DNA of 64,000 nt from Isoetes taiwanensis (Eukaryota > Streptophyta > Lycopodiopsida > Isoetales > Isoetaceae): positions 1,646,852 through 1,710,851 of the forward strand of contig JAJEKV010000015.1 of assembly GCA_021234155.1 (NCBI GenBank). The letters run 5' to 3'. The translations under genes were made by a program, and so were the position numbers. Within the stretch, counting starts at the first letter, position 1. Each line of letters begins with the position of its first letter. Positions 16,336 to 64,000 of this stretch are shown one piece after another. The notes beneath the pieces were generated by a model. The model saw nothing but the letters and a program-made list of their open reading frames with translations. It did no database searches and was not told the origin of the DNA.

Positions 16336-16650
16336 AGCCGATACCACCAAGTAGCGAGGAAGCCCCGGTCGAGACTGGCGCAAGCAGTTCGAGAGATCCG
16401 GCATTTCCAGAGAAGTTACGGCCTTCTCATCCCCCGAGCACCATTCGCCAGGCTCGTGAAGGAGGTCGTACAAGAATTCGACAAAAGCAAGAGAGTCACG
16501 GTTGAAATGCTGCTAGCTTTACAGGAGGCAGCAGAGCAGAAGTTGGTGCAGCACTCTGAAGACTTGAGGGTGTGCACTTTGCACGCCAGGAGAGTGACAT
16601 TAATGAACAAGGACATGCAATTGGCAAGTCACATAAAAGGAGAACGCTAG
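16307..16650 (+). pseudogene. Histone H3/CENH3-like ORF of element A, C-terminal part with intact fold
   Basis: From 16390 to the TAG at 16648-16650 the frame encodes 86 residues that align without gaps to histone H3 residues 49-134. Recognisable blocks are REIRHFQRSYGLLIPRAPF (alpha-N to alpha-1), LLALQEAAEQKLV (alpha-2), CTLHARRVTLMNKD and QLASHIKGER (alpha-3 to end). LQEAAE and REIRHFQ resemble plant CENH3, where canonical H3 has LQEACE and REIRKYQ or REIRRYQ; loop 1 has canonical H3 length. The N-terminal tail and charged insert are missing because the element is truncated at the ATRX fusion, and a 7-nt deletion near 16350 shifts the upstream frame. The fold itself has no stop or frameshift. 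By family knowledge such a fold pairs with H4 in a nucleosome; whether this one does is unknown. Confidence 0.88.
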
Positions 16651-17371: not shown

Positions 17372-18897
17372 ATGACAACTCCAGCATTCAGGCGCTGGTA
17401 TAGTGCCAGTGCTCATGTGGCTGAGGCTAACATCAATGCCATTTTTGCAGTTTTCCAGAAGGAGATAGACATCCAAGCCACCTTGCAGGCAACCCCATCC
17501 TATCAGGAAGTCATGACTGAGTTCCAAGCTAGGGTAGGACCATCCTTAATACAGCTTTCCCCTTGTACAGGATATTTTGTTCCTAAGCAATCCCTCCAAG
17601 CAGCCTTGGGTGATGTCCCGGACATTGCCAAGTACCTGAACAACAAGGTTGCTAGGATGCCAGACTACATGGTCATAACAGTTAATAGGGCAAAATATTT
17701 CTCCTATACCGTTGCCATAGCCATCTTTCTCTCTCACCGTGCCCAAAACCCAATCGGGGAACCCTCTATCTAGGCCATGGATGTAGACCCCATAGCCTCT
17801 TCAGCAGATGGTCAGCTCCTCTTGCAGTATCAAGCGGAGCAAGAAGGAAGAGCCGAAGACGAAGAGCTTGACTCAGACGACGAAGACTATGTCGAGTTCA
17901 ACCTGGACCAGGAACGGCAACAAACAGAGCAGGAGATCCAGTCTTTCGACGAGGACCTGCAGACCAACAGGATTGCTCCCCCGCTCGGGCTAGGTATCAC
18001 AAGCCTAGCCCCCATCATCATCAGCGGCCAGGAGTACCTGCTCCTGAGTGACATCCAGAACCTTCCCCAATGCAGAGCCATGGAGTACAGACGCGATGAG
18101 TTGCTGCACCTTCTGCGGCAACAACCAGATCTGGATGAGTTTATCGATCGGGAGGCTTCCGACTTCCCAATCAACGTAAGAGAAGCCAACACTTACACTG
18201 GGGAGTCGACTTCAGATATCGAGGCATATAGCAGCATCCGGCAATTGATGGCAGCTCGGGATCTGCCTTCCGAAGAAGAATTCTACGCCATCCAAGAACG
18301 GATGGGGATCCGCGGCAAGTCCACAAGTATTTTGATGCCGAGTTCTTCGAGACTAGCTTCCACAGATGTCCAGAGAAGAGGCGAGATCAACCTGACAAGC
18401 CTCGCATCAACAACAAGGGACCATAGAGACCTGACTGAGGTTCACGTCGATGAATATGCGGGAAGACATAGAGCTAGTGCCCGACCCAACGAAGAATCAA
18501 CAGCAACGGGCAGGGACAAGTCGATAACGTATTAACTTCCTCTGCTGTTGGACGGGAGAATAGCGGTCACCACCGCAAATTCAGCCCAAGGGGCGAAGGA
18601 GTATTCATGCTCATCGCACTCTCCGGATTTGGTAGGCATGCTCGGCTGATTCCAACAGTTGACCATGTCATCCTAGTCAATAGAACGGTGGCACTTGATA
18701 TCTTTTACTTCGTGGTACCCTACCGACGGCAGGAAAGATTAGCAGTGACCGCGGCCTACACTTCCGACCGCAGAGTGGAAGACTTGGTGACAGCCTTGCA
18801 GGGTAGAACACCAACGAACATCCTCAGGAACTTGGGACGCTTAGTAGGAACGGCCCAGGTTAAGAAGTTCCTTGAGGATAACCCATCCCGCCGGTGA
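17372..18897 (+). pseudogene. ORF X of element A, unknown protein upstream of gag
   Basis: I do not recognise this protein. It begins MTTPAFRRWYSASAHVAEAN at 17372 (MATPAF in B, MAPTNF in C, so this start is conserved). An in-frame TAG (17771-17773) splits it; the frame goes on at 17777 as MDVDPIASSADGQLLLQYQ, an acidic stretch (EELDSDDEDYVEF) and a conserved block with LGITSLAPIIISGQEYLLLSDI. A frameshift near 18540-18600 leads to the last part (SPRGE..FMLIALSGFGRH..., ending FLEDNPSRR at 18897). Element C keeps the same order, with CAG at the TAG position. The length without breaks is about 500 residues. It has its own TATA box and hairpins upstream. No zinc finger, membrane segment or enzyme motif is visible. 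It may be an accessory or an N-terminal gag extension. Confidence 0.7.
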
Positions 18898-23686: not shown

Positions 23687-25218
23687 TGTGACGTTCCAGC
23701 ACAGTATACGGTCCCAGGACGTATACTGTACTGTATCGTCACGCCTACACGCCATCCCGATTGCGTGTACGCCGACGTGTAGCTAAGCAAGTAGCGCCCT
23801 AGGGGACAACTTGCAAGTGTGTGCACATTTATTCATGTGTGCACTTTAGCCCACTTAAATAATAAGTGGGCAAGTGGGCAAGTGGGCCAAGTGGGGGCTA
23901 CATCGACTTACCCTACAAGGGCAAGTGGCATGATCTCAAGGGTTGATGGAAACCCTAGCCCTAACTTATAGCCTATATAAGGTATCCAAACCCTAACTTT
24001 CCATTTTCGTCCACAGCCTTCTTCCAAGAGCCAATCTTTGTCTCCGAAGTCTGTCTGAGCAGCCTAGCTCATCAGCTTTCCTTTCTGGCTTCATCTTCAA
24101 GCAGTTCCACAGCATGGACGCGTTCAGAGCAGGAGGAGCAAGCCAGGGATCAGGTATTTTGCCAATTCAATAGTCTAATCCGCCTTCCAGGCATAGAGTA
24201 AGTAGGTTTAACCTATTGAATTGCCCATAGCAGCCATCTAGACCTCTAGATATTAAGCCATAACTAAAGAACCTAACTTCTGTGATTTAGATTAAATCTT
24301 GTTCTTTACTTCTTCTATTATATGTATGTGATGATGATCTCTATGGAATCATTGTATTGGGAAGGGGGGTAGAGGCCCTAAAAGCCTAGTAATTTGATGC
24401 TCCTAGCTAGTCCTCTTTAATGCACTATTAAATTCGGCCTGCGTACAAGAACCACACCTGGTTGTGGGTGGAGGGACCAGACTGGCTTACAAGGAGGTTC
24501 ATGTCCTGATCACGTCCCTCTGGTAGTAAAGCCTATCGTGGAGTACAGTGCACTAGACCTAATGCTCTGCCACTGCATGCGGGCTTTGCATGGGTTCGAC
24601 ACTCTTGGGATGGTGTACACCTTCCATGGAGTTCAGTCGAGTACGGGCAGTGGCCCTCTAGTCACCTTGAGTCAGCATGCCAGCCTCTGGTGGGAGCAAT
24701 CCCTACCTGCCCCATCGGAACTGGGGAGATGCAACCCAAAAGTAGTCCCTCTGGCTATGCATCCGGCGGGCTACAGTCAAGTCCCAAGAACTTTCAACCT
24801 ACTCTGCAAAGTGTGCATAGGAGGGGCGGATGGAGCGGACTACCCAATTGCCATGTTCTTATGCCAACCAACTCCACTGTTATTGCACTCTGTCTGTTTG
24901 ACCTCTGGAGACCCAAGCTTGTCAGTCCATCCCTGTGTCTGAACTTGGGTAGACCTTCCATATGTGATGTATGTGGTGAGCCATCCTTCGTGATGGTCAT
25001 GTGATGTTGATGTATGTATACTTATATGTATGTAACGCTTCCGCAGCTAGGTAGGCCCTGAGGGAGACAGGGTAAAATGACCCCTTCATTCTTCCCACTG
25101 GAACTCGTCAAGGTTGCAGTGATACGTGGAGGGCCTTGTATCAGCATGGAGCTGGTATGGGGGATGAACTCCTGTTTGTATACAGTGAGTGCACTGTATA
25201 TGAATAGGGGACGTCACA
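23687..25218 (+). repeat. LTR shared by element A (3') and element B (5'), 1532 bp
   Basis: It begins TGTGACG and ends CGTCACA, the usual TG...CA with short inverted termini. A purine tract precedes it and a tRNA primer-binding site follows directly, so it serves both as 3' LTR of A and 5' LTR of B. A TATA-like CCTATATAAGG lies at about 23972-23982 with telo-box sequences around it. It is very similar to 36576-38148. Confidence 0.92.
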
Positions 25219-25219
25219 G

Positions 25220-25231
25220 TGGTATCAGAGC
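25220..25231 (+). other. Primer-binding site, initiator-Met tRNA (element B)
   Basis: TGGTATCAGAGC starts one base after the LTR end and is complementary to the 3' end of initiator-Met tRNA, which primes minus-strand synthesis in many plant gypsy elements. Confidence 0.9.
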
Positions 25232-25434
25232 TATGTTCTTGGAGACCAAGAGCAAAGCACTGGCCATGCTCCCAGTAGTATTAACTTAGTAGAATTCTCA
25301 AACCTCGAAAAAGTGTGAAAAAAATTTTCTCCTTTTTTTTTGTAGCATATGCTAAGCTAGTAACAGTTAGAAGAATTGAAAACCAAGAAAAAAACTAAAA
25401 AGTTGAACTAAATTTTGACCAAGTGTGGAAATTG

Positions 25435-25711
25435 CTCACGGTATTCGTCAGAGCATCGACCTAAATTTTAGGTCAGGCCCCAGGCGCACACCGTGAGTAA
25501 CTTTACCATAATCACCTTCAAACTTGATGAATTCGAACAAGATAATATGCTAGATCGAATTTTAAGGTAAGGTTTAGCTAGATTTGTATATCACACCCCT
25601 ATGAATATGTCTAGAAGTTATATATTTTTAGTCAAAAATGCAAAAATACTCATGGTATGCGCCAGAGCCTCGACCTAAATTTTAGGTCAGCCTCTAGCGC
25701 ACATCGTGAGT
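25435..25711 (+). promoter_or_regulatory. Paired nested hairpins upstream of the histone-like ORF (element B)
   Basis: Hairpin 1 is 25435-25498 and hairpin 2 is 25648-25711. Both have outer arms of the ACTCACGGTATGCGC type and the inner palindrome GACCTAAATTTTAGGTC. They are the same structures as the pair upstream of ORF X and are followed by a TATA box. Confidence 0.7.
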
Positions 25712-25843
25712 AATTTTACTTAGAAAACTCTAAAGTAAGTACATGAATGAGCCATTATTCAAGAAAATTATCCAAGTTAAGTTAATATGTGCCTTTATTC
25801 AAGAAAATGCGCAACTTAAAATTTGACCTAAAATTTGCCAAAA

Positions 25844-25853
25844 CTATAAATAG
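25844..25853 (+). promoter_or_regulatory. TATA box of internal promoter for the histone-like ORF
   Basis: CTATAAATAG lies 103 bases before the ATG at 25956. The following leader (gctcccggattttgaggc) resembles the leader after the ORF X TATA box, which suggests the promoter module was duplicated. Confidence 0.55.
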
Positions 25854-25955: not shown

Positions 25956-27225
25956 ATGGCGCGCACTAAACAGACTGCACGCAAGTATCGACCAGGCGAA
26001 AGGGCCAGTGCCCAAGAGAGGAGGAGAATTCAGCAACTGCTTTCGCAAGAGGAGAACAACTTTCGTCAACGGAGGAGATTACTTCTGACGAGTCAAAGGG
26101 ATCAAGCGAGGAGGCCTCAACATCAGAGGAGTCCAGGCAGGAATCAATAGACGAGCTGGCCGACTTCATCAACCAGCGGTCACTCGACGAAGAAGCAGAG
26201 ATTGAGTCTGAGGGATCGATGGACGAAGAAACTCGCAGAGTGTTCGAGAAAATCGAGGAGGAGATACTAGAGCAGGAGAAGGCAGAATGAGAGCAGGCTA
26301 CCAACAAGCATGACGAACAGAAGGAGCCCTCTCCCAAACCCACCCTGGAAGAAGAAGTCAAGGCCTGGATCTAAATGCAAAAGACGAAGTTACGACGCAT
26401 CAAGAGGAGAACGGCCGAGAAGAAAAGGAAGTTGCAAGAACAGGAGGCGGAGATAAGGAAGAAGCTCAAAGGGAAGGGCAAGGAGGAGCCCAAGAGAAAA
26501 TTGAAGAAGACACCGATTGTCAAAATTGTCATCAGAGAACGGCAGCCCGACCAGCCCCCATCCTCTGACGACGAGGATGACGAAGATTACGAGCCCTCCC
26601 CAAGAAGAGATCAAGAGGTAGGGAGCTCCTCAAAACCGGCGGACGAGGATCAGACGACCGAGGATCAGCAGATACAGGTACCCCCACCATACCCCACGTG
26701 GGAGAAGGAGAAAGATCCGAAGAAGCCGACCCGACCTGCATGGGAGTCATATGTGGTCGACCATCTCAGGGTTTACCAGAAGAAGCTCAAGGCTTACAAG
26801 GAGTACATGCGGATGTGGGAGGCCTACAACACCTACTATCAGGCAAACAAGGTAACATTCGTCGAGGGAGGACGACCATCTAAGAAGAAGACTATCAAGC
26901 CGCCCTCAGTGAAGCCGATACCACCAAAGAAGCCAGTAGCGAGGAAGCTCGGGTCGAGACTGGCGCAAGCAGTAGTCCGAGAGATCCGGCATTTCCAGAG
27001 AAGTTACGGCCTTTTCATCCCCCGAGCACCATTCGCCAAGCTCGTGAAGGAGGTCGTACAAAAATTCGACAAAAGCAAGAGAGTCATGGGTGAAATGCTG
27101 CTAGCTTTACAGGAGGCAGCAGAGCAGAAGTTGGTGCAAGACTCGAGGGCGCACTTTGCACGCCAAGAGAGTGACATTAATGAAAGGACATGCAATTGGC
27201 AAGTCACATAAAAGGAGAACGCTAG
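25956..27225 (+). pseudogene. Histone H3/CENH3-like ORF with H3 tail (element B), frameshifted
   Basis: The ORF begins MARTKQTARKYRPGERAS: residues 2-10 equal the first nine residues of mature histone H3 (with K4 and K9), and YRPG equals H3 41-44. After an indel near 26050-26060 the frame continues with a Glu/Ser/Asp-rich stretch, two stops (26288-26290, 26372-26374), then Lys/Arg- and Asp/Glu-rich low complexity, PPPYPTW, an aromatic-rich segment (WESYVVDHL ... YKEYMRMWEAY) and FVEGGRPSKKK. The histone fold starts at 26968 (REIRHFQRSYGLFIPRAPF) and includes LLALQEAAEQKLV; indels at about 27135 and 27180 shift the last helix, whose stop would be 27223-27225. Tail and fold are 337 codons apart, against 48 residues in H3. 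Known H3 tails recruit readers and writers at K4 and K9; the same role here is inference. The copy is dead, the design is not chance. Confidence 0.9.
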
Positions 27226-27369
27226 TTCTTGTAAATAATAAATTTTGTAAATAAAAAGTTTTGTAGAACAAGTTCTAAGTGCATAAATGATGTTGATAAG
27301 GTTGAATTAGCAGTATTTGCTTTTTTGTTTTAGTTAAAATGGACGACATCTGGTCAAGGAGTGGGAAAT

Positions 27370-27618
27370 TGCGCCAGAGCATCGACCTAAATTTTAGGTC
27401 AGGCCCCAGGCGCACACCGTGAGTGTTTCGCATAAAAAATGGGTCCTAACCATCTCCAAACTGGACAAGTAAGGGGTCAATCTTCCATATCTCGGTGAGA
27501 CCATCATGTTTTGACCCTTAGTTCATCCTGTTTAGATCAAATAGGGCCAAATTACTCACGGTATGCGCCAGGACCTCGACCTAATTTTTAGGTCAGCTTT
27601 CTAGCGCACACCGTGAGT
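27370..27618 (+). promoter_or_regulatory. Paired nested hairpins upstream of ORF X (element B)
   Basis: The first hairpin (27370-27425) has lost its left outer arm but keeps the inner palindrome. The second (27554-27618) is complete, with arms ACTCACGGTATGCGC and GCGCACACCGTGAGT. They match 16788-17055 of element A. Confidence 0.68.
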
Positions 27619-27811
27619 ATTTTTAGCATTATCTCTTTCATGCCACCTCCAATTGACCTCAAATTTATTGCAGTAGGTTCATTAGATAGTCTTATTCATG
27701 CTCATACCCTCAAATTAGCCTTCAAATCCTCATTTAGACCTCAAAATAGGTGAGATTTGCCAAACCCTAAAATTTTTCAAGTTTTTCAAAAATTAGGGTT
27801 TTTCCTTTTTC

Positions 27812-27935: not shown

Positions 27936-29463
27936 ATGGCAACTCCAGCATTCAGGCGCTGGTACAGTGCCAGTGCTCATGTGGCTGAGGCTAACATCAA
28001 TGCCATTTTTGCAGTTTTCCAGAAGAAGATAGACATCCAAGCCACCTTGCAGGCAATCCCATCCTATCAGGAAGTCATGGCTGAGTTCCAAGCTAGGGTA
28101 GGACCATCCTTAGTACAGCTTCCCCCTTGTACAGGATATTTTGTTCCTAAGCAATCCCTCCAAGCAGCCTTGGGTGATGTCCCGAACATTGCCAAGTACC
28201 TGAACAACAAGGTTGCTAGGATGCCAGACTACATGGTCATGACAGTTAATAGGGCGAAATATTTCTCCTATACCGCTGCCATAGCCATCTTTCTCTCTCA
28301 CCGTGCCCAAAACCCAATCGGGGAACCCTCTATCTAGGCCATGGATGTAGACCCCATAGCCTCTTCAGTAGATGGTCAGCTCCTCTTGCAGTATCAAGCG
28401 GAGCAAGAAGGAAGAGCCGAAGACGAAGAACTCGACTCAGACGACGAAGATTACGTCGAGTCTAACCCGGACCAGGAGCGGCAACAAACAGAGCAGGAGA
28501 TCCAGTCTTTCGATGAGGACTTGCAGACCAACAGGATTGCTCCCCGCTCGGGCTAGGTATCACAAGCCTAGCCCCCATCATCATCAGCGGCCAGGAGTAC
28601 CTGCTCCTGAGTGACATCCAGAACCTTCCCCAATGCAGAGTCAGGGAGTACAGACGCGATGAGTTGCTGCAGCTTCTGCGGCAACAACCAGATCTGGATG
28701 AGTTTATCGATCAGGAGGCTTCTGACTTCCCAATCAACGTAAGAGAAGCCCACACTTACACCAGGGAGTTGACTTCAGATATCGAGGCATATAGCAGCAT
28801 CCGGCAATTGATGACAGCTCGAGATCTGCCTTCCAAAGAAGAATTCTATGTCATCCAAGAACGGATGGGGATCCGCGGCAAGTCCATAAGTATTTTGATG
28901 CCGAGTTCTTCAACATCAGCTTCCACAGATGTCCAGAGAAGAGGCGAGATCAACCTGACAAGCCTTGCATCAACAATAAGGGATCACAGAGACCTGACGG
29001 AGGTTCACGTCGATGAATATGTGGGAAGACATAGAGCTAGTGCCCGACCCGACCAAGAATCAACAGCAACGGGCAGGGACAAGTCGTAAGGTATTACCTT
29101 CCTCTGTTGTTGGACGGGAGAATAGCGGTCACCCACCGCAAATTCAGCCCAAGGGGCGAAGAAGGAGTATTCATGCTCATCGCACTCTCAAGATTTGGTA
29201 GGCATGCTCAGCTGATTCCAACAGTTGACCATGTCATCCTAGTCAAGAGAACGGTGGCACTTGATATCTTGGACTTCGCGGTACCCTACCGACGGCAGGG
29301 AAGATTAGCAGTGACCGCGGCATACACTTCCGACCGCAGAGTGGAAGACTTGGTGACAGACTTGCAGGGCAGAACACCAACAAACATCCTCAGGAACTTG
29401 GAACGCTCGGTAGGAACGGCCCAGGTTAAGAAGTTCCTTGAGGATAACCCATCCCGCCGGTGA
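27936..29463 (+). pseudogene. ORF X of element B, unknown protein
   Basis: Nearly identical to ORF X of element A. It starts MATPAFRRWYSASAHVAEAN and has the same in-frame TAG (28335-28337), followed by MDVDPIASSVDGQ. A 1-nt loss near 28545 (RIAPRSG, then stop) shifts the frame; the conserved remainder is read from 28664 (LRQQPDLDEFIDQEASDFP) and, after another indel near 29090, in 29107-29463 (FSPRGEEGVFMLIALSRFG to FLEDNPSRR). That the TAG is shared while later damage differs shows the TAG is older than the split of A and B. No known domain is visible. Confidence 0.7.
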
Positions 29464-29644: not shown

Positions 29645-30665
29645 GTGTATGCAGCTAGAGGTCCAAGAACAGCTGAGCAAGACTGGCGAGTCCATAGAGA
29701 TGAAGAGACTCCGGCCAGACAGCACCCAGCATGGAAACTGTATGAAGAATTCGGCCCCATGACTCCCGAAGAGGAGATGTTGCAGATGAGATCAGACCTT
29801 CAAGAAATAAAGGCCTTATTGGCAGCGCAAGCAGCAGTTGGCCCTGATCACAACGTCCAGTTGCCACAAGCATCACGGATGGCTAGGCTTTGAGTTTGCC
29901 AGAAAGGGCAGTGTGGGCAAGCACCAAAAAGTGTGGTCCAGAAGGAGGTCCCCTTGCAGTGTGGTCCAGAAGGAGGTCCCCTAGCACGGACTCCTCCGAC
30001 ACAAGCTCACATTCGGACTCCGACTCCGAGGAAGAGGTGGAAGAGGTGCAGGACCGTAGAGATGGCAGACTCAGGGAGACAAGGACCTCAGACTACCAGA
30101 AGAAAGTAGATTTGGCACTGAGCAATGTATGGAGGCAAGAAAGCTTGAACAGTTCTCAGGTGACAGTCGGTCAGGCATTGAGGCAGAGGCCTGGCTGGAT
30201 GAAATGAGGGAATATGGGAATGCATACGGAATGAGGGACAAAGATAAAGGCAGGGTGGCAACAGCCAACCTCAAGGGCGCAGCTCGTATATGGTGGAAAG
30301 GGTATGCAAAAACACATAAGCTAAGCCGAGACAGCTTCAGGTTTCAGAAATTCTCAAAGGCATTCAAGCGCCACTATGTGCCAAGGGAGCACAAATGCCA
30401 CATGATGCAGCAATTCTATCGGCTAGAGCAGGGCAACAAGTCAGTGCAGAAATACACGGAAGAGTTCATGAAACTGAGGCTTTATGTGCCGAAGCTGAGT
30501 GAACGCCATGCAGTGGAAGGGTACATCGAGGGATTAAACGACGAGATATGGAAGCTGGTAAGAGCAATTAATCCTCGAACAGTATCAGAAGCGGAATCGA
30601 AAGCAGTCAGCCTGCAAATCTGGCCCTCAGAACAGTGGGCAGAAACAGCAGTACTACCAGGATAA
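29645..30665 (+). pseudogene. Gag of element B, with filler insertion
   Basis: Collinear with gag of A. The N-terminal charged part runs 29645-29893. An 80-base foreign stretch (about 29875-29958) then replaces the basic segment seen in A; its first 49 bases match an ATRX intron. The Ser/Asp/Glu-rich part and the capsid core resume (EAWLDEMREYGNAYGM, GAARIWWKGYAKTH, KYTEEFMKLRLYVPKL) in the frame 30129-30665. Interrupted and probably non-functional. The zinc knuckle follows in the next open frame. Confidence 0.82.
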
Positions 30666-30816
30666 GGGCAAAGCAACTGGAAGTTATAGCCCTAGGGCAG
30701 CTAGTCTAGGACCAGCAAAGGCTCCATACAGTGGCAGTTATGGAAAGCAGCAGGAAAAGAAACAGGTATCCTTCAAGGATAAGCCGCAGCAAGAAGGGTC
30801 AAATTATTCGAAAGCG

Positions 30817-32937
30817 GTGCGATCCTTTTTACAATCAATACCTAAGGAGAAGAGGCAGGAGTGCATTGAGAAACAGCTCTGCTTTAGGTGCTTCCAGCCA
30901 GGCCACAGAATAGCAAACTGCCCTTTTGTCATGAATGTGACATTAGCAGAGATGGGTGGATGGGAGACTCCCTCTGACGACGACGGCGGGGAAGCACGCG
31001 ACTTCATTCAAGGTGAGTGTCACATCTTTGCAGCCATAGATTCAGACCAAGCAGAAAATCAGTATCAGGTAATCTCCACAGTAGGGAAGGCCAAGGCCAA
31101 GTCTTTTATAGTCCTGATAGATACAGGGAGCACCCACAATTTTGCGTCTCCAAGAATGGTCGAGATGTTGAAGCTCAAGCCGTTGAAGTCAAAGCCGAGA
31201 CTGCCAGGGATCAACATCCAAATGGGAGCAGAAGTGATGAACATCGGGAAGTATGATTTGATCATCGGCATGGAGTACCTCGCTCCAGCAAAGGCCATCA
31301 TCAACTGTGGATGGCTCCAATACGTGTTCACGCAACCACATCTCAACCTGAGGCAGCGAAGGTGGATGGAGTTCCTCGAAGAATACGATTTTGTTATAGT
31401 TTATAAGCCGGGGAAGCTCAATGTGGTAGCAGATGCGCTTTCAAGGCGTCCTCTGACAACAAGAGTTCACTGCAACACAATCTCGACTTCAGAAGGAAGA
31501 TCGAAGAAACCTTGCCGACAGATGCAGACTTCAAGGAAGTGTGGGCGAGCATGTGCAAAGAGGCAAGAACATATAAGGAGAGGGAGACCTTCAAGAATTT
31601 TAGGAAGGAAGGTAACCTTTTGTACCATAAGAATAAGTTGTGTGTGCATGAGTCATCAGGAGTGAGGAAGTTGATTCTCCACGACACCCACAACAGTTCA
31701 ACAGTTGGCCATGCAGGATTTATGAAGACATATTTCAAAGTGCGCAGCAGTTATTATTGGCCAGGGATGAAGAAGCAGATAGCTCGCTACATCAAAGAGT
31801 GTCAGCTATGTCAGCAGACGAAGGCAGAGCAGCTTCGAATTCCAGGAGCATTGGAACCATTAGCGGTGTCGAACGCTAAGTGGGAAGTCATCAGTATGGA
31901 CTTCATAACAGGGCTCCCGAGGACAGCAAGAGGAAAAGATGCCCTGATGGTTGTGGTCGACAAGCTGTCGAAGATGGCACACTTTGTGCCTTGCAGGACC
32001 ACTGACACAGCCTTGGATACATCGGCTCTCTTCACAAAGAAAATCTTCAGGCTCCATGGTATGCCGAGAGAGATCATCTCTGACAGAGACTCGAAGTTCC
32101 CCGAAAGTGCCTTTTGGCGTGGTCTTTTGCGACGATCCGCACGGCTCGTCCATGAGCACGGCCTATCATCCTCAGACGGATGGGCAAACAGAACGGACCA
32201 ACAGAATCTTGGAAGATATGCTAAGAAACTATGTCTGTAACAAGCAGACTAAGTGGGAAGATTACATTCACTTGGTTGAGTTCGCTTATAATAGCACCAA
32301 GAAGGAATCAACCCAGATGTTGCCGTTCATGATCAACTACGGCTACCAATGTCTGACTCCAGACACTTGGCACAATCCTGTGTCAAAGGTAGAGGTTTCG
32401 CAGCAAATGTTGACCGACATGCAGCAGCTGGTAGAAGAGGTCCAAGGATATCTTCTTGCAGCAAGGAGTGGACAAAAGATCGTCACCGACAAACACCGGA
32501 CGGTCAGAGAGTTCGAGGTTGGCGACAACGTCTGGCTCAAGATCAAAGTGAAGCAGGCAAAGCTCTGCATCGGAAATTGTAAGAAGCTTGCTCCAAGGTG
32601 GACTTGCCCCTTCAGAATAGCCAAGAGAGTAGATAACCAGTCCTACAAGTTAGAGATGTCAGCACACCTGAAAATTCATAAAGTCTTCCACGTGAGTTTG
32701 CTGAAGAAGCATACTCCAAACCCAGAAGAAGTCTTGGACATGCCAACGTTGTTGGAAATGACAGAAGAGCAGCTAGAGATAGTCCCAGACTTGATCCTTG
32801 ATAAGGAGATCAAAAAGACAAGGAGATCAGAGTTTCTCCAATATTTGGTCAAGTGGAAACACTTGCCGGTGGAAGACGCGACGTGGGTACTTAAGCAGGA
32901 CCTGATAAGGCATTACCCGCAGTTCATGGAGCAATGA
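30817..32937 (+). pseudogene. Pol of element B: protease, integrase and chromodomain, RT deleted
   Basis: Frame 30817-31665 has the zinc knuckle CFRCFQPGHRIANC and the protease site VLIDTGSTHNFAS, then jumps at about 31310 from the end of the protease region to the last part of RNase H (FVIVYKPGKLNVVADALSRR): all RT motifs are gone. Integrase follows (31512-32240): HHCC zinc domain (HNSSTVGHAGF, CQLCQQTKAEQ), first catalytic Asp in SMDFITGLP, second in IISDRDSKF. After a frameshift near 32100-32150 the third acidic residue lies in TDGQTERTNRILEDM. The C-terminal part has VFHVSLLKKHTPNPEE and a chromodomain (LQYLVKWKHLPVEDATWV). Chromodomains of this class bind methylated histone tails and steer integration to heterochromatin in known chromoviruses. 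Complementary to element A, which lost integrase but kept part of RT. Confidence 0.9.
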
Positions 32938-33550: not shown

Positions 33551-33670
33551 ATGTTTTGCTGTAATTCTTGGATCCAGCCCTAAATCTGACGGTTCAAATC
33601 GTTCGACCAAATGTTTTGCTGTAATTCTTGGATCCAGCCCTAAATCTGACGGTTCAAATCGTTTGACCAA
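33551..33670 (+). repeat. 60-bp tandem duplication in the Helitron
   Basis: Units 33551-33610 and 33611-33670 differ at one base (gttcgaccaa against gtttgaccaa). They lie just inside the 5' end. Confidence 0.9.
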
Positions 33671-34420
33671 ATCGGACGGCTTAGATAGGTTACCTTTTTT
33701 TAGGGTTTCTCAACAGGAGCGAGAGTTTGCTGGATGTCCTTGGTAGCTAGAAGAAAATTGTGGTGGCTATGGCGGATGCCTTATGGTCGAAGATTTAGGT
33801 TTGCTTCTACAATTCTTCAGCAGCATCTTCGACGTACCGATTTGCTTCATGTAACTTAATTCTTTAGCAGCATCTTTGGTATACCCAAACTGCTTCGAAT
33901 CTTAAAGTCAACCATGTCTGCTACAACGCCAGGCTTCAAATTATAGTAAGCTTCAGATTACAGTGGAAGCTCGCAAGGCGCTTTGCACTTCTGGCTTATT
34001 CATAAGGTTTTCAGTCGTAGACAGCTTAAAAGACCCATTTTAAGATCTGGAATTGCAAAAGAACAGGCGGCCTTACCATTTCTTCACGTTTTTGTTTCGG
34101 GCATTTTTGTTTCGTGCAGGGCATTTCGTTTTAAGGGCTTGGAGTTGCTTGAAGATTTTAGGATTTTTGTTTCTCTTCATGGTTCCACAAAATATACAAT
34201 CATGCAATTAGAGCCAGATTTAGAATACAAAAAGCAGATGAAAAAACACTGGTTGATCATGCAGTTAGGACCAGATTTGGAATGCAAAGAGCATATGAAA
34301 ATACGCCAACATGACGATCAACATGCCCTGCAGGTTTGTTTCCTTAGTAGAAAATTTACTTACTTACTTCATGTAGTTTGGTTTTCCATTTTCTGAATGC
34401 TAACTTGAATTTGGTGCCAG

Positions 34421-34541
34421 GTCTTGGATTTCGTTATTTCTGAAGCTTCCAGTCATGGCATCAAGCTCATCCTTTCCTTTGTTAATAACTATGTTGACCT
34501 CGGCGGTCGACCTCAGTATGTTTGGGCAAGGTGGACATCCT
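34421..34541 (+). pseudogene. Captured exon of a mannan endo-1,4-beta-mannosidase
   Basis: After an acceptor-like gtgccag the sequence reads [19 protein letters not shown], then [19 protein letters not shown], the pattern of a conserved internal exon of plant GH5 endo-beta-mannanases (LDFV..EA...GI.LILSLVNNY.DFGGR.QYV.WAR). The enzyme cuts mannan in cell walls. Only this exon is recognisable; the flanks could hold adjoining introns. A stop follows within a few codons, so it is a captured, non-functional piece. Other capture candidates in 33700-34400 and 34700-36100 are not recognised. Confidence 0.75.
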
Positions 34542-34584
34542 GTTGCAGCTGTTAGTTTCTTTCGTGTGTTTACACCATGATTAG

Positions 34585-36575: not shown

Positions 36576-38148
36576 TGTGACGTTCCAGCACAGTATACGG
36601 TCCCAGAACGTATATCGTACTGCATCGTCACGCGTACACGCCATCCCGATTGACGTGTACGCCGACGTGTAGCTAAGCAAGTAGCGCCCTAGGGGGCAAC
36701 TTGCAAGTGTGTGCACATTTATTCATGTGTGCACTTTAGCCCACTTAAATAATAAGTGGGCAAGTGGGCAAGTGGGCCAAGTGGGGGCTACATCCACTTA
36801 CCCCACAAGGGCAAGTGGCATGATCTCAAGGGTTGATGGAAACCCTAGCCCTAACTTATAGCCTATATAAGGTATCCAAACCCTAACTTTCTATTTTCGT
36901 CCACAGCCTTCTAGAGCTCCATTTCGCTTGCTCCAAGAGCCAATCTTGGCTCCTGAAGTCTATCTGAGCAGCCTAGCTCATCAGCTTTCCTTTCTGGCTT
37001 CATCTTCAAGCAGTTCCGCAACATGGACGCGTTCAGAGCAGGAGGAGCAAGCCAGGGATCAGGTATTTTGCCAATTCAATAGTCTAATCCGCCTTCCAGG
37101 CATAGAGTAAGTAGGTTTAGCCTATTGAATTGCCCATAATAGCCATCTAGACCTCTAGATATCAAGCCATAACTAAAGAACCTAACTTTTGTGATTTAGA
37201 TTAAATCTTGTTCTTTAGTTCTTCTATGATATGTATGTGATGATGATCTTTGTGGAATCATTGTATTGGGAAGGGGGGTAGAGGCCCTAAAAGCCTAGTA
37301 GTTTGATGCTCCTAGCTAGTCCTCTTTAATGCACTATTAAATTCGGCCTGTGTACAAGAACCACACCTGTTTGTGGGTGGGGGGACCAGACTGGCTTACA
37401 AGGAGGTTCATGTCCTGGCTCATGATCATGTCCCTCTGGTAGTAAAGCCTATCGGGGACTACAGTGCACTAGACCTAATGTTCTGCCATTGTGTGCGGGT
37501 TTTGCATGGGTTCGACACTCTTGGGATGGTGTACACCTCCCATGGAGTTCAGTCGAGTACGGGCAGTGGCCCTCTAGTCACCTTGAGTCAGCATGCCAGC
37601 CTCTGATGGGAGCAATCCCTACCTGCCCCATTGGAACTGGGGAGATGCAACAGCCCCTCTGGCTATGCATCCGACGGGCTACAGTCAAGTCCCAAGACCT
37701 TTCAACTTACTCTGCAAAGTGTGCACAGGAGGGGCGGATGGAGCGGACTACCCAATTGCCATGTTCCAATGCCAGCCAACTCCACTGTTATTGCACTCTG
37801 TCTGTTTGACCTCTGGAGACCCAAGCTTGTCAGTCCATCCCTGTGTTTGAACTTGGGTAGACCTTCCATATGTGATGTACTGATCTCTGTCTATGCAGAT
37901 ATGTGGTGAGCCATCCTTCCTGATGGTCATGTGATGTTGATGTATGTGTACTTACATGTATGTTACGCTTCCGCAGCTAGGTAGGCCCTGAGGGAGACAG
38001 GGTAAAATGACCCCTTCATTCTTCCCACTGGAACTCGTCAAGGTTGCAGTGATACGTGGAGGGCCTTGTATCAGCATGGAGCTGGTATGGGGGATGAACT
38101 CTTGTTTGTATATGGTGAGTGCACCGTATATGAGTAGGGGACGTCACA
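36576..38148 (+). repeat. 3' LTR of element B, 1573 bp
   Basis: TGTGACG...CGTCACA, preceded by the polypurine tract. Nearly the same as 23687-25218 with small indels (for example about 23 extra bases at about 36911). TATA-like CCTATATAAGG near 36862. Directly after it comes gaggt and LINE1 ORF1 sequence. Confidence 0.92.
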
Positions 38149-39030
38149 GAGGTCCATGCAGGATGGAAGAGTTGGTTGATGTCCTGAGGATCAAAGGCCG
38201 GGTACCATATTTGAAAGAAAATTTGGGTATTGGCTCTCGTAATTGTGCCTTGTTTAAGGAGCATTTTAACAAATATCTCGTTTCCACATTCCACAATGAA
38301 GAAAGGGAAACCAAGCCAATAAATCTTAGAAATAGAGATACTTTCAATCAATTTTTCGAGCTCGGCTCTTATCATTGGAGTTTCACTCCCTCATGTCTAA
38401 CACAGCTAATCACTGCTCGATTCACCATCTGTTTTAACCTTGCTTCCACAAACGGGTTTTTCAAAATTTTACCATGGAATACATGCTTGGTTTTTTCCTC
38501 GACTGGCCCACCCTGCTCCTCTTGCAGATTGTTCAAATGCTCCAGAATTGGCACACAGTATTCTGCTGCCTTTACACAGCTCCTATCTCCATCTGTTGCC
38601 TCGTTGCCACCATATCTATAGGAGTTATTGCTTCTCTGGCTCTGAGTCCGACAGGCACGTGAAAAAGTCGCCAAAAGCCATCAAATTTTCTGCGTTCTCT
38701 TCGACTTCCTTTCCTTTTCTCACCCTATTGGTTTCATCATTATTGACTGCTGCATTTTGTCCTTTTGCAGGCTCCAAATCTTTTAAAAATTGTACCAATT
38801 TCCTCCTTTCAAAATCTAACATGACAGACACTCTTCTTGCAATCATTTTGATCTCATTTGGCATAGAATCCAATGTTTGGCTGTCTCTCGCTTTTCTCAA
38901 ATTGTCTTTCCATGACAAAATAGAGGATTTACGATTATCCATAACTAACTTCTCAAAAAACTATGAACCAAAACCAAGAACCAAATCTGTTTTCCCTTTT
39001 GAGTTTTTCTTCTTCTTTTTTTTTCTTTTT
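38149..39030 (-). pseudogene. LINE1 copy 2: 5' part of ORF1
   Basis: Matches 3134-4005. The minus strand encodes the LINE1 ORF1 start (ATG ending at 38942, MDNRKSSILSWKDNLRKARD) and part of the DUF4283-like block (FPFFIVECGNEI, about 38260-38300). It is cut at 38149 by the gypsy LTR. About 24 bases present here (after 38507) are missing in the first copy. Confidence 0.85.
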
Positions 39031-55529: not shown

Positions 55530-55542
55530 TGGTATCAGAGCC
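55530..55542 (+). other. Primer-binding site, initiator-Met tRNA (element C)
   Basis: TGGTATCAGAGCC starts two bases from the LTR end. Confidence 0.9.
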
Positions 55543-56068: not shown

Positions 56069-57140
56069 ATGGCCAGAACCAAATCCACTGCCAGAGTTTG
56101 TGGCCCCTATGCAGAACAAATTCACTTAGCTGCTCAAGCAGCAGCTGCCCAGCCACCTCCTCGAGAAGAGGAAGTAGCTGAAGAAGAAGAGGAGGAAACA
56201 AGTGAGGAAGAAGAGGAAGAATCAAGTGAAGAACAGGAGGTTGACGAAGAACGGGCCGAAGAAGAACCAGTCACTAGACCCACAACAGGTGGGAAGCAAC
56301 TCCCAAAAAGTATGAGACCCAACAGCAAGAAAGGCAAGGAAAAAGTATCCGAATGGGCCTCAGAAAGGAGGGAGAGAAAGAGGAAAGAAAGAGAGGAGGA
56401 GTTGAGAAGGCAAGAGAGGAGGACGAAGAGGAGGCAGGATAGGCCTAGGGGGACAATTTCTATTGAGGAACCCATTAGAGATGAAGAACCAACTGAAGAA
56501 CAAGAGGAGGACGCTGAAGAAGAAGAGGAGGAAGACCCCGTGGTCGAAAGATCAGGAGATGAGGCCGAACCCTCCAACCCCAATGCCCCTCCACCATACC
56601 CAACATGGCCCAAGGCCTGAAGAGCAAAAGAAGCAAAAAGGAGAAAAAGGCTGCTATTCAAATTGAGTCATGGCCCCAATTTGAAAGAAAGAAGGCGGCA
56701 TATAAAATTTATTTTCGCCGATGGTACCTATACAACGAATGGTATTGCAAACAGAATTTTCCAAGGACGGTAAAGGGGGGTAGACCCAAGAAAAATCAGC
56801 CGAAACCACCCCCACCACACCCTAGAGAGCCCAAGAGGAAACACCATGGCCCCAACTCGAAGCACTCCCGTGCGTTTAGGGAAATTCGGCACTTTCAACA
56901 GTGCACAAATCTCCTTATCATGAAGGCACCCCTTGGCGGTTTGCTTAGAGAGGTGTTTGTGAATTCAAGGCGGATTATCGGGTCACACCATTGATGGTTC
57001 GATGCCGCAAGAAGCTTCTACTTTTTGAGCTAGTTCAACTATTCGAAGAAGGTAACCTCTGTGCTATTCATGCCAAGAGGGTTACCGTAATGCCTAAAGA
57101 TATTCATTTGGCAAGAAGAATTAGAGGAGCAAAGTTTTAG
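56069..57140 (+). pseudogene. Histone H3-like ORF of element C, two frameshifts
   Basis: Starts MARTKSTARVCGPYAEQ, matching H3 residues 1-8 except Q5 to S. An acidic stretch (EEEVAEEEEEETSEEEEEES), a Lys/Arg-rich part and PPPYPTW follow. A frameshift near 56600-56640 leads to an aromatic segment (YKIYFRRWYLYNEWY), GGRPKK and the fold at 56878: REIRHFQQCTNLLI. One base is lost near 56960, after which the frame to the TAG at 57138-57140 reads EFKADYRV, then [20 protein letters not shown] and [13 protein letters not shown], almost canonical H3 ([33 protein letters not shown]). Spacing to H3 is exact after the single-base correction. Alpha-2 is atypical ([11 protein letters not shown] for LQEACEAYLVG). 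It is closer to canonical H3 at the end than the A/B copies. The copy is inactive as it stands. Confidence 0.9.
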
Positions 57141-58020: not shown

Positions 58021-60406
58021 ATGGCGCCGACCAACTTCATCGAATGGTATAATAGCTCCGACCACAAGGGAGAAGTACCCATACAGCAGGCCTTTGAGGT
58101 GCTCAATCATACATTTGATCTATATGCAACACTAACAAGGACACCATTCTACACAGAGATAATGATCCAGTATGATCAACAGATATTGCCAAGGGAAGTT
58201 GACATTCCACCCAGAGCAGGAAAGTGGGTTTCTTGATTGGAAGCTGCGTTGGGAAGTTTCCCGGGAGACCGTTGAGCTACTGTCCAGCCTGGCGAAAATC
58301 CGGCCTATGTGGCAAACCTACGGAAGCCCTCCCCTGCCCTGATTTCGATCTTTCCGGATCCTTCCTGCCCAGAAAGCTTAGGGCCGGAACTTGTACTCTT
58401 TGTTGTTCATCTACCAGGAAGCAGGCGAATCCGACTCTTGCTTAATCCGACTCTTCCTTCCTTTCATGTATTTCTTTGTAAATATTTTCAGAATCATAGA
58501 TGGCGGTATGTTGCATCTGGCCCTTTTTTTTCTGAACTGTCTAAGTTAAAATTAGAATCAAGCAAATCGAGACGATTGTCCAGATGGGGATGGTGGTGCA
58601 AGTATTGATCCCCTTCAAATATCAGAAAATACAAGTGCCCTGGCTACATTGCAGGTATGTTAGATCTTTTTTCTGTATATATCTTTCTTTTCCTTCTATA
58701 TTTATGGTTTTTTCTAAGTAGATCTGCTCCTTTCCATTCAAATTTTGTTAAGACAGGAAGCTTGAGCATGCAAAAACACTGTAGTAGCATATTGGATGAA
58801 ATATTGCAAGGATGCCTTTGAAAAGAATGACTGGATATTCTCGCCAAGATCCACAATGGTAAAAGGAAGCATAAAACATTTTGGCTGAGCAGCATAGACA
58901 TGGATATAGGCGGTTTCTAATTTCATCCTCGCTTGTTTATAGGTGGCCTCAAGGTCCTAAGAAATAAAAGACGATTATTATCGGCGAAAGTATACGCATT
59001 TGCACCAGTTGCAAGCTTATTCATATCACGGTGTCAAGAATCACATCCAAGGCGCCCTGCCTTTGCCAAATTGAAAGAACAAGCAACATGATTCTCCGGT
59101 GAGTATTGGGCAATACATCAAAAATCAAGAAACAAATATGGGAAAGAACAAGCAATATGATTATATGAGATGTACAAAGACAAAAGCATAGGCATGTTTT
59201 AGCACAAGCAGCACTTGCAATTTTTATGCAATTTAACGCCATCAATCAGGTAGGGGAACCTTCAGTTCAGCCCCTAGACCTTGCACCCTTGAACACAAGG
59301 GTAAATCAAGATGACATCCTCGAACTCGACACGACCGAGTACGTGACCCAAGGCACATCACATGGAATACTCAAGCCGCATCTTAAGATTATGAAGAAAC
59401 CGGTGAGCTAGATGAAGAAGAGGAAGCTTAGATTCACGAAAAATGGGAAAGGCAAATCACTATGCATGAAGAACGGGTGCTAAAATCAAACCCGCCACCA
59501 ATAGGTATCACTGCCTTATCTCCAATAATTGTCGAAGGAGAAGAATACCTCCTCACAAATGACATATTGCATCTACCTTACTGCTTGGAACAAGGCCTAA
59601 GAATTGATGAACTTCTAGGCATCATCTCCGAAGGACAGCAGCATGACCTTATCGACTATTCTTATCAGGAGATTCCTCGTGAAGTAGCAGAGCACCATTC
59701 TTATACGGGTGAAACAATGTCCGATATTGAAGTCTATAAATACATAAGGGAGTTCTATAAGCAAAATGAACCCATAATATCGGAAGAAGAATTCCAAGCA
59801 ATTCAAAGCACCTTGTATAAACCAGGCAGAGGACCTAGCGCGAGTCAACCCAAGAGATCATCAAGTGTCAGGGAGAGAAACACCATCAATCTTGAAAACG
59901 CGGCGACAATGATGAGAGACCATGATGATCTCCTAGCACTTGACATAGTGGGATCTGCAGCAGCAAGAAAAGGAACAGGCAAAGGAAAAGCACCGAAGGG
60001 GCATAAAAAAGGCAAGGCCTTGAGATACTACCTCCCAACCTTGTGTCAAGGCCAAATGTTAGTCTTTCACAAAGAATTTAGCCCAAGAGGGGAAGAAGCA
60101 GTAGCATTGCTCATGGCACTCACAGGTTTCAGGCAACATGCCAAAATAAGAGAAAATATCGATCACGTCATTCTCATTAAAAGATCGGTAGCTCTCTATA
60201 GTCTAGATTTCGCCCGGGGCCACATGCGAGATGGACCACTGACAGTTGTAGCAGCTACGGCACCGGAACTCCCAGCACCACAGATGCAGCAAGCCCTAGA
60301 AGGAGGATCGACACGTAATATCCTAAGAAATGAGGGCAAAGGCCTTAGACTCAAGCATATCAAGGATTTCTTCAAATCCAAGACAGGATCCAGCTCCAAG
60401 GAATAG
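58021..60406 (+). pseudogene. ORF X of element C, interrupted by a foreign insert
   Basis: Starts MAPTNFIEWYNSSDHKGE and is homologous to X of A and B (IPPRAGKWVS for LPPCTGYFVP). Homology breaks near 58260 and resumes near 59215 (FMQFNAINQVGEPSVQPLDL), with CAG where A and B have TAG. After small frame damage at 59400-59470, a long open part 59462-60406 contains IGITALSPIIVEGEEYLL, HSYTGETMSDIEVYKYIREF, a basic GKGKAPKGHKKGKA stretch and the conserved FSPRGEEAVALLMALTGF block, ending at 60404-60406. That X is conserved across diverged elements shows it was under selection. Function unknown. Confidence 0.72.
58262..59215. other. Foreign insert in ORF X of element C
   Basis: About 950 bases without counterpart in A or B. 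It contains an acidic coding-like stretch (DDCPDGDGGASIDPLQISEN, about 58580-58640) directly followed by CAG|GTATGT, as at an exon-intron border. No transposon termini were found. Possibly captured host gene sequence; source not recognised. Confidence 0.45.
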
Positions 60407-60690
60407 ATTAGCAAATTCATGTTTAGCTTTCTTAAAATTATGCCAAGTATTTACTTTCTAAAGATAATATTATAATTTTATGTACTCATGTGTTTTGAAT
60501 AGAAAAGTTATCTTATGATTATATAAATCATCTTCTATTTTAAAAATCTTTATGGTTTATTTGAAGTAAGATAACAATATCATAACACCAAGGAATATTG
60601 CATAAACAATGTATTTGATAAAATCTTGCAGCTGGAACATTCGGCTTACCACCTCAGGAACAAGAATTTCAAAACCGACAACGAAACTGG

Positions 60691-62910
60691 TTGCCAAGGA
60701 ACTTATTTGGCCATGACAATGATGAAGCAGTCGAGGATGACATGTCACCCGAAGCTATAAACCGACGATTAGTGCGCATGAGAAATCAAATGAGACGGAT
60801 AGTCAACTGGGCAACACCACTGATGCAAAACCAGGAGTGCCCACCCCTTCAACAAGTTCACCAAGGGCAGAACCCACCACCGGAAGTTCCAAAGGAGAAA
60901 AAGAGAAAGAAAAGACATAGGAGAAGTGTAACTCCTTCAAGCTCAAGTGCAGACAATACCACATCAGGTACAGCTAGTGACAGTAACTCCGACACTGAGT
61001 CTGATAGTTCCAATGGTAGGAACAGACATCGAAGAGGAGGAACAGTACGTCGAGCGGAAGATTACCAGAAGAAAATAGATATTGCTATGAGCAATGTCTG
61101 GAAAACAAGGAAACTAGGGCAGTTCTCTGGAAAGGACAGATCCGGCATGGAAGCAGAAGCATGGCTTGATGAGATGGAAGAATTTGGCAACTCCTATGGG
61201 ATGAAGGATAAGGACATAGGAAAGGTAGCAACAGCAAATTTGAATGGTCCAGCCAGAATATGGTGGAAGGGATATGCCAAATCAAATAGACTGAAAAGAA
61301 ACAATTGTAAGTTCAAAACTTTCAGTAAAGCATTTCGCAAGCACTATGTACCTCGATCACATACAAGCAGGCAGATTCAACAATTTTATAGGTTGGATCA
61401 AGGAAATTTAACCGTAGCCAAATATACAGAAGAGTTCATGAGGCTACGACTAAATGTGCCAACAATAACAGAAAGACAAGCCGTAGATGGTTACATTGAA
61501 GAACTAAACCCCAACATCAAGAGACTTGTGCGGGCCATAAACCCAAAAACAGTTGGGGAAGCTGAGGATAAAGCCTTAAGTTTGGAAGAAACTCCACAAA
61601 CACCTGGCCAAAGCAGAGCAACTATTCAAAGGACAAGTCAATAGCTCCATACACTCCAAGGCAGCATGGAAATCAACCTGCTAACCAGCAGTTTCAAGGG
61701 AAGAATGACAGGAAGGGACCATGGAATAAATTACTACTCCCGTATTTTAGTGTAGCCAAAATAGGTTTAGCTAAACTACCTTCAAATTGGGGTTAGAAGT
61801 TTCTAACACGTGGCTAAACTAAATGATTTTTATCCATTGTAGTTTCTTGCTTTTGGCTAAACTTTCACAAAATGAAGAGGCAAATATTAGTCATCACGCT
61901 CCAAGCATCTTGGCAAAGACATTCAATTTATTGTAAATACAATGTCATGCGATATAGATAAAGTAATGACAATCAACATAATATAGCATAATAGAATTAT
62001 TATCATTGTTATGACTTCCTTGATATGAAGAACAAAGACATAAATCAAGGCACAAATATACATGAACATGTTCAAAAACCCAAAAAAAAGAGTACATTGT
62101 TCTTTTTCCTCTAATGCTTCAACTTTGTACTTGGAACAAGGAAAAAACATGAAAAAGAAAAGGAAAAAGATAAACCCTATTTGATAATTTCTTAAAGTTG
62201 GTACATATATTGGTGTGGATTCTGGGCTAATCTATCTATTTTTCCAAGCCCACTCTATCTTAGGTTTAGCTAATCGATGTCCTAATAGATATGTCTGGAG
62301 GTAAAGGTTGGACTATTAAACCTAAAAGATCACTTGGGCGGCAAAAAAATCAGGCTAAAATTTTCTTTTTTTTCGGCATTTTTTCCATTTACTTTAGCCA
62401 TTTTTCTTGGCAAAATTGCCACAAAATAGCCATTTGGCTAACCTTAGCCATTATTTTATTCCATGGAAGGGACCATACAGAAACCAGTCAGCTCAAGGGT
62501 CTTCATCTGGCAGGTCAATCAAAAGCTTCCTAGACAGCATTCCAAAAGAAAAGAGGGATGAATGCATCAAGAAACAACTCTGTTTCAGATGTTTCCAACC
62601 AGGCCACAGAACACATACATGTCCTTTCGTCATGCAGGCAGCCTTGGCAGAGCTAGATGGATGGGAATCACCTACTGAACAAGATGAAGATGATGATCAG
62701 GAGGAAGCCCAAGATTACATAGATGGTGAGTGTAAGATTTGTGCAGCTATTGAGACTGATAATGTTGCAAGTCAGTCCACGGTCATCTCAGCTGATGCTA
62801 TAATAGATGATAAACCGTATGTAATTCTAATAGACACAGGTAGTTCACACAATTTTGCATCTCCTAGACTGGCGGCAAAGATTATTGAAGTCAAAGACCA
62901 CGAAATCTAA
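60691..62910 (+). pseudogene. Gag and protease of element C, interrupted by a DNA transposon
   Basis: The frame 60691-61644 holds the charged N-terminus and the whole Retrotrans_gag core (KKIDIAMSNVWKTRKLGQF, EAWLDEMEEFGNSYGMKD, GPARIWWKGYAKS, KYTEEFMRLRLNVPTI). It then shifts and is split by the 744-bp insert 61721-62464. On the far side the frame 62407-62910 contains the zinc knuckle CFRCFQPGHRTHTC and the protease active site [14 protein letters not shown]. The part upstream of the ATG (60631-60690) is also coding-like, so the real start may be earlier or reached by splicing (ttgcag at about 60625). Removing the insert and one target duplication restores collinearity with A and B. Confidence 0.85.
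61721..62464 (+). mobile_element. Small non-autonomous DNA transposon (MITE-like), 744 bp
   Basis: 10-bp inverted termini ATGGAATAAA / TTTATTCCAT are flanked by a 10-bp direct duplication GGAAGGGACC (61711-61720, 62465-62474). Subterminal copies of TAGCCAAA / TTGGCTAA occur at both ends. A 9-11 bp duplication suggests a Mutator-type element, though the short termini leave that open. No transposase ORF. Orientation arbitrary. Confidence 0.75.
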
Positions 62911-64000
62911 AACCTGCGGTCCAAGCATGGCAAATGGGGCAATTCGACATACAAAGGGAAGAAGAGTTAATTTTGACGTCGGATTGACCGGAATTAAGTT
63001 CACCATGGGAGCTGAGATAATGGATATTGGCAAATATGACTTGATAGTTGGAATGGAATTCCTCAAACCAGCTAAGGCAATCATTGACTGCGACAATAAA
63101 GAAATAGCAATCACCGCACCAGATGGCAAACGAATAGTGGTCAGAGGTAAGGAAATTCTTTCAGTAATGCAGTGTATAACTTTAAGCCAGTTGAATAAAT
63201 GCAATTTAAAGAAGGAGATCGAATATATCCTTAGGCTAGAAGCAATTCAACCTGATAGTGAGAAAATAACACAGGAGGAAAGCATAGAAAAATTGCCTAA
63301 GCCTATTGCTAAAATCATAAGAGAATTTTATGATGTTTTTCCGGATGATATCCGAGAGCTACCACCCTATAGAGGTGTGGAATATGAGGTTGCTCTAGCA
63401 CCAGATGCTAAGCCTACTAGCAAGGCTCCTTACAGGATGAGCACACCAGAACTTGGAGAGCTCAAGAAACAGTTGAAGGAGTTGTTGGAAATTGGTTTTA
63501 TAAGACCAAGTGTATCACACTTTGGGGCACCTATTCTCTTCGTGAAGAAGAAAGATGGAAGTCTAAGAATGTGTATAGATTACCGACAACTCAATAAGCA
63601 AACGGTAAAGAATAGATACGCATTACCAAGGGCAGATGATCTAATGGATCAACTTCAAGGGGCAAAGATATTTTCCAAAATTGACTTAAGGTCAGGATAC
63701 CACCAAATAAGAATAAAAGAAGAAGATGTTCATAAAACAGCTTTCAGAACACGCTATGGTCATTATGAATTTACAGTTATGCCCTTTGGCCTATCAAATG
63801 CACCAACAACGTTCATGAGGTTGATGAATGATATTTTCAGAGAGTTCTTGGACGATTTTATAATAGTGTTCTTCGACGACATCCTCATTTATAGTAAGTC
63901 AATCGAAGAACATGATCACCATCTGAGAAAAGCATTACAGAAGCTAAGAAGGCATAAGCTATTTGCCAAATTTTCCAAGTGTCACTTTGCCACCCCCAAA
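62911..64000 (+). CDS. Pol of element C, protease end and reverse transcriptase, partial
   Basis: After a frameshift near 62900 an open frame runs from about 62924 to the window edge. It has the protease C-terminal half ([37 protein letters not shown]), a linker and the [83 protein letters not shown] and the catalytic [13 protein letters not shown] (about 63855-63895). All palm motifs are present with no stop. RT copies element RNA to DNA. RNase H, integrase and the expected chromodomain lie outside the window. This is the region that elements A and B have lost. Confidence 0.9.

Follow-up and report, generated by a model that had tools for sequence, protein, structure and literature searches.

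The window examined here, a stretch of 64,000 nucleotides (nt) from Isoetes taiwanensis (assembly GCA_021234155.1, contig JAJEKV010000015.1, positions 1,646,852 to 1,710,851 of the forward strand), contains long terminal repeat (LTR) retrotransposons, of which the truncated copy A and its sister element B (class I), as well as the far diverged element C (class II), carry an open reading frame (ORF) resembling histone H3 (Table 1). In element B, translation from the ATG at 25956 starts with MARTKQTARKYRPG and continues through a long charged stretch into an H3 fold. A first reading made from the sequence alone had described this plan of tail, large charged insert and H3 fold within a single ORF, and the plan is real: the open piece at 26375-27208 matches the Pfam family Histone (PF00125, 3.7e-10, 40.6 bits, cut-off 26.4) as well as solved H3 chains (3.4e-9). 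The frame is nevertheless interrupted, as that of the tail closes at 26150, stops occur near 26290 and 26372 in the other frames, and a further frame change lies near the C-terminus. Two cases overlooked by the sequence-only reading are the fold of copy A (16336-16647) and the H3 ORF of element C (56069), which is also broken and shows MARTKSTARVCGP, PPPYPTW and REIRHFQ in succession. Against the same Pfam cut-off, the fold of copy A scores 79.4 bits and those of the genomic relatives L009 and L087 reach 87.2 and 138.9, while the 5′ piece of the element C fold taken alone falls below it (17.1 bits). Copies A, B and C are all broken or truncated, and it is the existence of at least 139 scored relatives in the genome, together with ratios of nonsynonymous to synonymous substitution (dN/dS) far under 1, that places the window ORF beyond chance.

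Searches of the host genome (1.66 Gb, its plant nature also indicated by three matK-like fragments) with four H3-ORF queries, whose sets of matches overlap, yielded at least 139 scored matches for class I (of 9583 first-look candidates, with 55-100% identity), at least 133 for a diverged class I query, at least 150 for the tail piece of element C and at least 111 for the bridging class II member L098; taken together, the two class II queries hit at least 237 separate places, without finer sorting by class. The ORF is therefore present in many genomic copies, the lack of which would have counted against the sequence-only reading, and a one-time capture at the window locus is rejected. Among the L098-query matches listed, 77 of 111 have no in-frame stop over the matched stretch (counted by eye). 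Sixty class I loci were read, which are not a random sample (42 were picked for lacking stops in the matched stretch and 18 had them); a start followed by at least 370 open codons occurs in 12, and ten of these ORFs are complete (402-429 amino acids, aa). In class II, four complete ORFs of 357 aa were found (L083-L086). No relatives were matched in IMG/VR scans or GTDB contigs, and the best 120 matches listed from a protein collection are H3 and CENH3 types plus some unplaced long-tailed H3s.

The sequence-only reading had also raised the matter of purifying selection across copies, which proves to be strong by the Nei-Gojobori method and strongest in the fold. Comparison of the ten complete class I ORFs with one another (45 pairs) gives a pooled dN/dS of 0.17 (0.28 in the tail, 0.22 in the charged insert, 0.18 in the linker and 0.06 in the H3 fold), and values are similar in class II (0.14, fold 0.084; four copies, six pairs) and in a third class described below (0.138, H3 part 0.025; three copies, three pairs). 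Reading the class I codons in shifted frames gave 1.39 and 1.26; the choice of complete ORFs depresses dN/dS somewhat, which is not expected to reach the observed values. Since dS exceeds 1 in many class I pairs, the ORF has been kept for long. Many copies, complete frames, purifying selection and the homology of the class I and II ORFs thus mark the H3-like ORF as an accessory gene that a Ty3/gypsy lineage has retained, and not as a one-off capture.

The protein of classes I and II consists of H3 residues 1-8, often also 9, an element-specific charged part (about 300-330 residues in class I, 255 in class II) and a complete H3 fold. Conserved motifs of the charged part in both classes are PPPYPTW, a Y/W-rich stretch and GGRPxK, the last of which we take to be AT-hook-like. 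A recognisable tail, called when at least six of nine residues match (a rule that favours conserved counts, K9 being outside it), was present in 51 of the 60 class I loci versus 0 of 20 shuffled loci. T3 is found in 50 of these 51 tails, K4 in 51 and R8 in 47, with an exact ARTKQTAR in 29, whereas position 9 is K in 23 and V in 25. Conservation of K4 alone says little, since its codon is AAA in 50 of 51; the R2 codon is CGC in 20 and AGA in 20. In class II, L098 has the tail MARSKQTARKYN and C-type copies have MARTKSTARV. The stretch from K14 to K36 is replaced, and K27 is gone in all copies read, so that of the canonical tail (K9, K14, K27, K36) only residues 1-8 or 1-9 remain in classes I and II, and none in class III.

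The surrounding architecture agrees with the earlier assignment to a Ty3/gypsy chromovirus, with LTRs, primer-binding site (PBS), gag, protease, reverse transcriptase and integrase in order plus, in element B, a chromodomain. Element B has gag, protease and an integrase part with chromodomain, and is therefore a Ty3/gypsy chromovirus; reverse transcriptase was detected by Pfam only in element C, and the domain order was followed by eye in L069-L078. An exact PBS precedes the H3 ORF in four of five fetched copies, and LTR pairs were found within the fetched 20 kb in three of the five (94.9, 92.5 and 91.5% identity), with none within that distance for L009 and L026. At least 18 of the 115 best gag-protease matches are preceded, on the same strand and at a distance of 4.1-5.7 kb, by a listed class I H3 ORF (mean of the shifted control 0.015), a number that rises to at least 22 when matches of the diverged class I query are added; the remaining 93 do not show absence of the ORF, because the H3 matches are only those listed. 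Between the H3 ORF and gag, a further accessory ORF (ORF2) occurs in copy A (17372-18532), in elements B and C, and at a class III locus (L091:26-1468). Its pieces from copy A and L091 match no Pfam family, and its structure prediction was unusable (predicted local distance difference test, pLDDT, 34.7).

Table 1. Features of copy A and elements B and C, in window coordinates
Feature	Position	Strand	Basis
Complete H3 fold of truncated sister copy A (5′ half of ORF missing)	16336..16647	+	PF00125 3.4e-22, translation
LTR common to copy A (3′) and element B (5′), TGTGACG...CGTCACA(G)	23687..25219	+	
PBS of element B, TGGTATCAGAGC	25220..25231	+	
Two hairpins in the H3 ORF leader, element B	25429-25518, 25643-25732	+	z -5.8 and -7.9
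TATA-like box CTATAAATAG, 112 nt before the H3 ATG, element B	25844..25853	+	
Broken H3-like accessory ORF, element B (class I): tail, charged insert, H3 fold	25956..27225	+	translation; PF00125 3.7e-10 (26375-27208)
Second hairpin pair, ORF2 leader, element B	27355..27638	+	27549-27638 z -8.5
ORF2 of element B, broken	27936..29086	+	translation
gag and protease region, element B	30060..31662	+	RVP_2, zinc knuckle; sister copy gag PF03732 4e-18
Integrase C-part with chromodomain, element B	31948..32934	+	PF00385 3.2e-9
3′ LTR, element B	36576..38149	+	92.9% to shared LTR (compared stretch includes ~75 nt of internal sequence)
PBS of element C	55530..55541	+	
Broken H3-like accessory ORF, element C (class II)	56069..57140	+	translation; complete relatives L083-L086
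ORF2 of element C, 5′ part broken	58021..60403	+	
gag, element C	60622..61641	+	Ty3_capsid 4.2e-17, Retrotrans_gag 3e-15
Protease and reverse transcriptase, element C, cut by window end	62834..64000	+	RVT_1 3.1e-37

Other sequences of the window include, on the minus strand at 10652-10960, the LTR end and PBS of a further C-like element (75% to those of C), near which tblastn detected no H3 ORF. The host sequence flanking A and B (3134-16309 and 38149-44304) is duplicated at about 93-97% identity, with zinc-finger exons recognised by eye near 15500-15990, and the right flank of element B may have its empty site in the copy at 3134. Some 2.6 kb of element B (33553-36159) are absent from copy A, and element C has a direct repeat of about 180 nt (97.8%) downstream of its H3 ORF (57294-57669).

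The TATA-like box TATAAATA lies 88-121 nt upstream of the H3 ATG in 48 of 51 class I loci, a figure to which the kinship of the copies contributes, and in the same loci only 95 of 3000 random positions had the box in the preceding 150 nt. ORF2, too, is preceded by a TATA-like box at 120-124 nt in copy A and in elements B and C. Four hairpin copies tested in the window gave z scores from -5.8 to -8.5, and self-comparison of the five fetched copies revealed two repeats on each side of the H3 ORF in four of them, L022 having one before and two after. Such pairs of strong hairpins (about 70-90 nt), of which a further one is seen at 16783-17075, precede both the H3 ORF and ORF2 and are each followed by a TATA-like box, forming a repeated leader module. 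The TATA-like box before the H3 ORF suggests that the class I ORF may be separately expressed from its own leader.

The homology of classes I and II extends beyond the fold and takes in PPPYPTW, the Y/W-rich stretch and GGRP-K (hhalign probability 99.1%, E 1.6e-18, 118 columns), so that the two classes diverged after a single capture. Class III (L087-L089, 413-420 aa) has a near-canonical H3 fold and was found with a CENH3 query, whose matches (at least 150 scored) include host H3 genes and are unsorted. Its N-terminal part is unrelated to that of classes I and II and had no match in the protein collection. The single class III locus fetched with its flanks belongs to the same element lineage: the LTR end is homologous to that of element C (61.9% over 1084 columns, 8e-51), a PBS-like site shows one mismatch (by eye), and ORF2 (26% identity to that of C, 3e-15) and gag (58%, 3e-90) follow in the order seen in C. 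Class III possibly derives from a second capture or from a swapped N-terminal part. In a tree of 42 folds, classes I and II group together (92/87) and class III falls with host H3 (99/84), whereas ten seed-plant CENH3s stand apart (95/98), joined by a fern CENH3 with only 84/73. A single origin of the three classes is at odds with the unrelated N-terminal part of class III and with the place of its fold beside host H3, yet the approximately unbiased (AU) test does not reject one clade (p 0.18).

The sequence-only reading had seen CENH3-like motifs in the fold and had considered a CENH3 mimic acting at centromeres. The motifs stand in part: REIRHFQ and IPRAPF do resemble the REIRHFQ..LLIP.APF of the alpha N/alpha 1 region of plant CENH3s (P0015 and others), which also share a variable N-terminal part with the elements and are numerous among the profile matches listed, although the reported LIPRAPF is found in sister copy A and element B reads FIPRAPF. 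The length of the fold and its loop 1, however, are not those typical of CENH3. Each of the 21 element folds aligned has the 84 aa of canonical H3, and the loop-1 RW is missing from all of them, whereas plant CENH3-type sequences have RW in 11 of 11 and 85-86 aa in 10 of 11 (the CENH3 labels of P0037, P0042 and P0117 are our own, their sources giving hypothetical proteins). Moreover, the canonical tail end is kept, and classes II and III are nearer to H3. An origin from CENH3 is thus disfavoured by loop 1 and by the tree, not decisively, as a grouping of class I with CENH3 passes the AU test (p 0.46). The centromeric reading is not supported, and we regard a CENH3 mimic as very improbable.

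We slightly favour the explanation that this accessory gene between PBS and gag encodes an H3-type variant that would enter chromatin together with host H4. The H3-like protein would be made as a separate product, pair with host H4 and become part of nucleosomes or tetrasomes, either on the DNA of the element or on chromatin exploited by it. Pairing and chromatin entry would agree with a core that is under selection and with the conservation of contact positions. The commonest residue equals that of host H3 in all three classes at C110, H113, A114, R116, D123 and L126, as well as at R69, R83, K115, T118 and K122, positions that presumably serve the H3-H3′ contact and DNA contacts; over the whole fold, this holds for 74 of 84 positions in class III, 60 in class II and 45 in class I. 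An AlphaFold model of the copy A fold likewise matches nucleosomal H3. More speculatively, chromatin of this kind might accept active marks and no silencing ones, because the K4 end is kept, K14 to K36 are lost and K9 is often lost. A fuller version is conceivable but rather doubtful: an element-own variant, acquired in two or more captures (classes I/II and III) and driven by an internal promoter, would replace H3 in nucleosomes on element DNA and so yield silencing-resistant chromatin.

Several observations weigh against the entry of an H3-type variant into chromatin. Class I is changed at R63, R128, R129 and other surface positions, so that nucleosomes or chaperone contacts may be altered; the model of the copy A fold is moderate (pLDDT 76.5, predicted template modelling score 0.49) and had H3 rows in its alignment. 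K9 is not lost throughout, since roughly half of class I and also L098 retain it, and the tail is not essential to every class, since class III has lost ARTKQTAR. Finally, the H3 leader of element C lacks TATAAATA. The main rival, which we consider unlikely, is a decoy that stays out of nucleosomes and whose H3 N-terminus and fold would occupy H3K4 readers and writers or H3-H4 chaperones, hindering silencing; the first eight H3 residues kept beside a long foreign insert are what would be expected of it, but the fold is the most constrained part (0.06, 0.084 and 0.025 in classes I to III), and the fold is retained in class III, which lacks the tail. The protein could instead coat the element RNA or DNA in the particle, or steer integration together with the integrase, a role to which the long charged insert, the GGRPxK motifs and the presence of a chromodomain lend themselves and which nonetheless seems to us rather improbable. 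The aromatic cage of chromodomains has been described (PMC6317226), and two of its three residues are missing by eye from the integrase chromodomain, which makes a reading of the tail by the integrase doubtful. That the chromodomain binds the H3 tail of its own element was considered as a candidate reading and is weakened by these missing residues and by the variable K9. As to a passenger sequence or artefact without function, the broken or truncated state of copies A, B and C would agree with it, but dN/dS far under 1 against shifted-frame controls above 1, the many listed matches without stops and the homology of class I and II ORFs leave it hardly credible.

Gene capture by LTR elements is already known as a kind, and it is the histone cargo that is unusual. 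The sequence-only reading knew of no such family, and a retroelement-encoded histone was likewise not found in the open-access full-text literature, outside which lie most subscription journals and preprints. Among the closest parallels are the orchid Ty3/Gypsy elements with an ORF for an AlkB m6A demethylase (PMC9289625), also plant Ty3/gypsy elements with a captured and retained host-like domain that may counter host control, although their cargo is an RNA demethylase and not a histone; section 12 of that paper, on 121 angiosperm genomes screened and 15 extra LTR-element domains, names no histone. Additional ORFs of plant LTR elements are similar as extra conserved ORFs beside gag-pol, in a review whose main text lacks the word histone (PMC7264820). 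Histones of DNA viruses offer mobile genomes with an H3-type histone, one single-H3 case having 68 extra N-terminal residues, but their carriers are DNA viruses and not retroelements, and the main text of the review lacks the terms retrotranspos and retrovir (PMC9145170). The long-tailed H3s P0028 and P0082/P0102/P0108 share an H3-like N-terminus, a long insert and an H3 fold, whereas outside the H3-like ends their inserts show no homology to classes I-III. Within the P0082 group (P0082, P0102, P0108 and P0008), inserts are 45-77% alike and unrelated to the elements described here. P0028 and the P0082 group could be further mobile histones.

Core histones are thus known from some DNA viruses, and none encoded by a retroelement was found in the literature searched. 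The elements of I. taiwanensis offer a natural experiment on H3, in which the fold is kept, the first eight residues are kept in two classes, and the tail from K9/K14 to K36 is replaced. A selected, high-copy H3 variant made by the silenced party would be a direct handle on the conflict between transposons and chromatin silencing.
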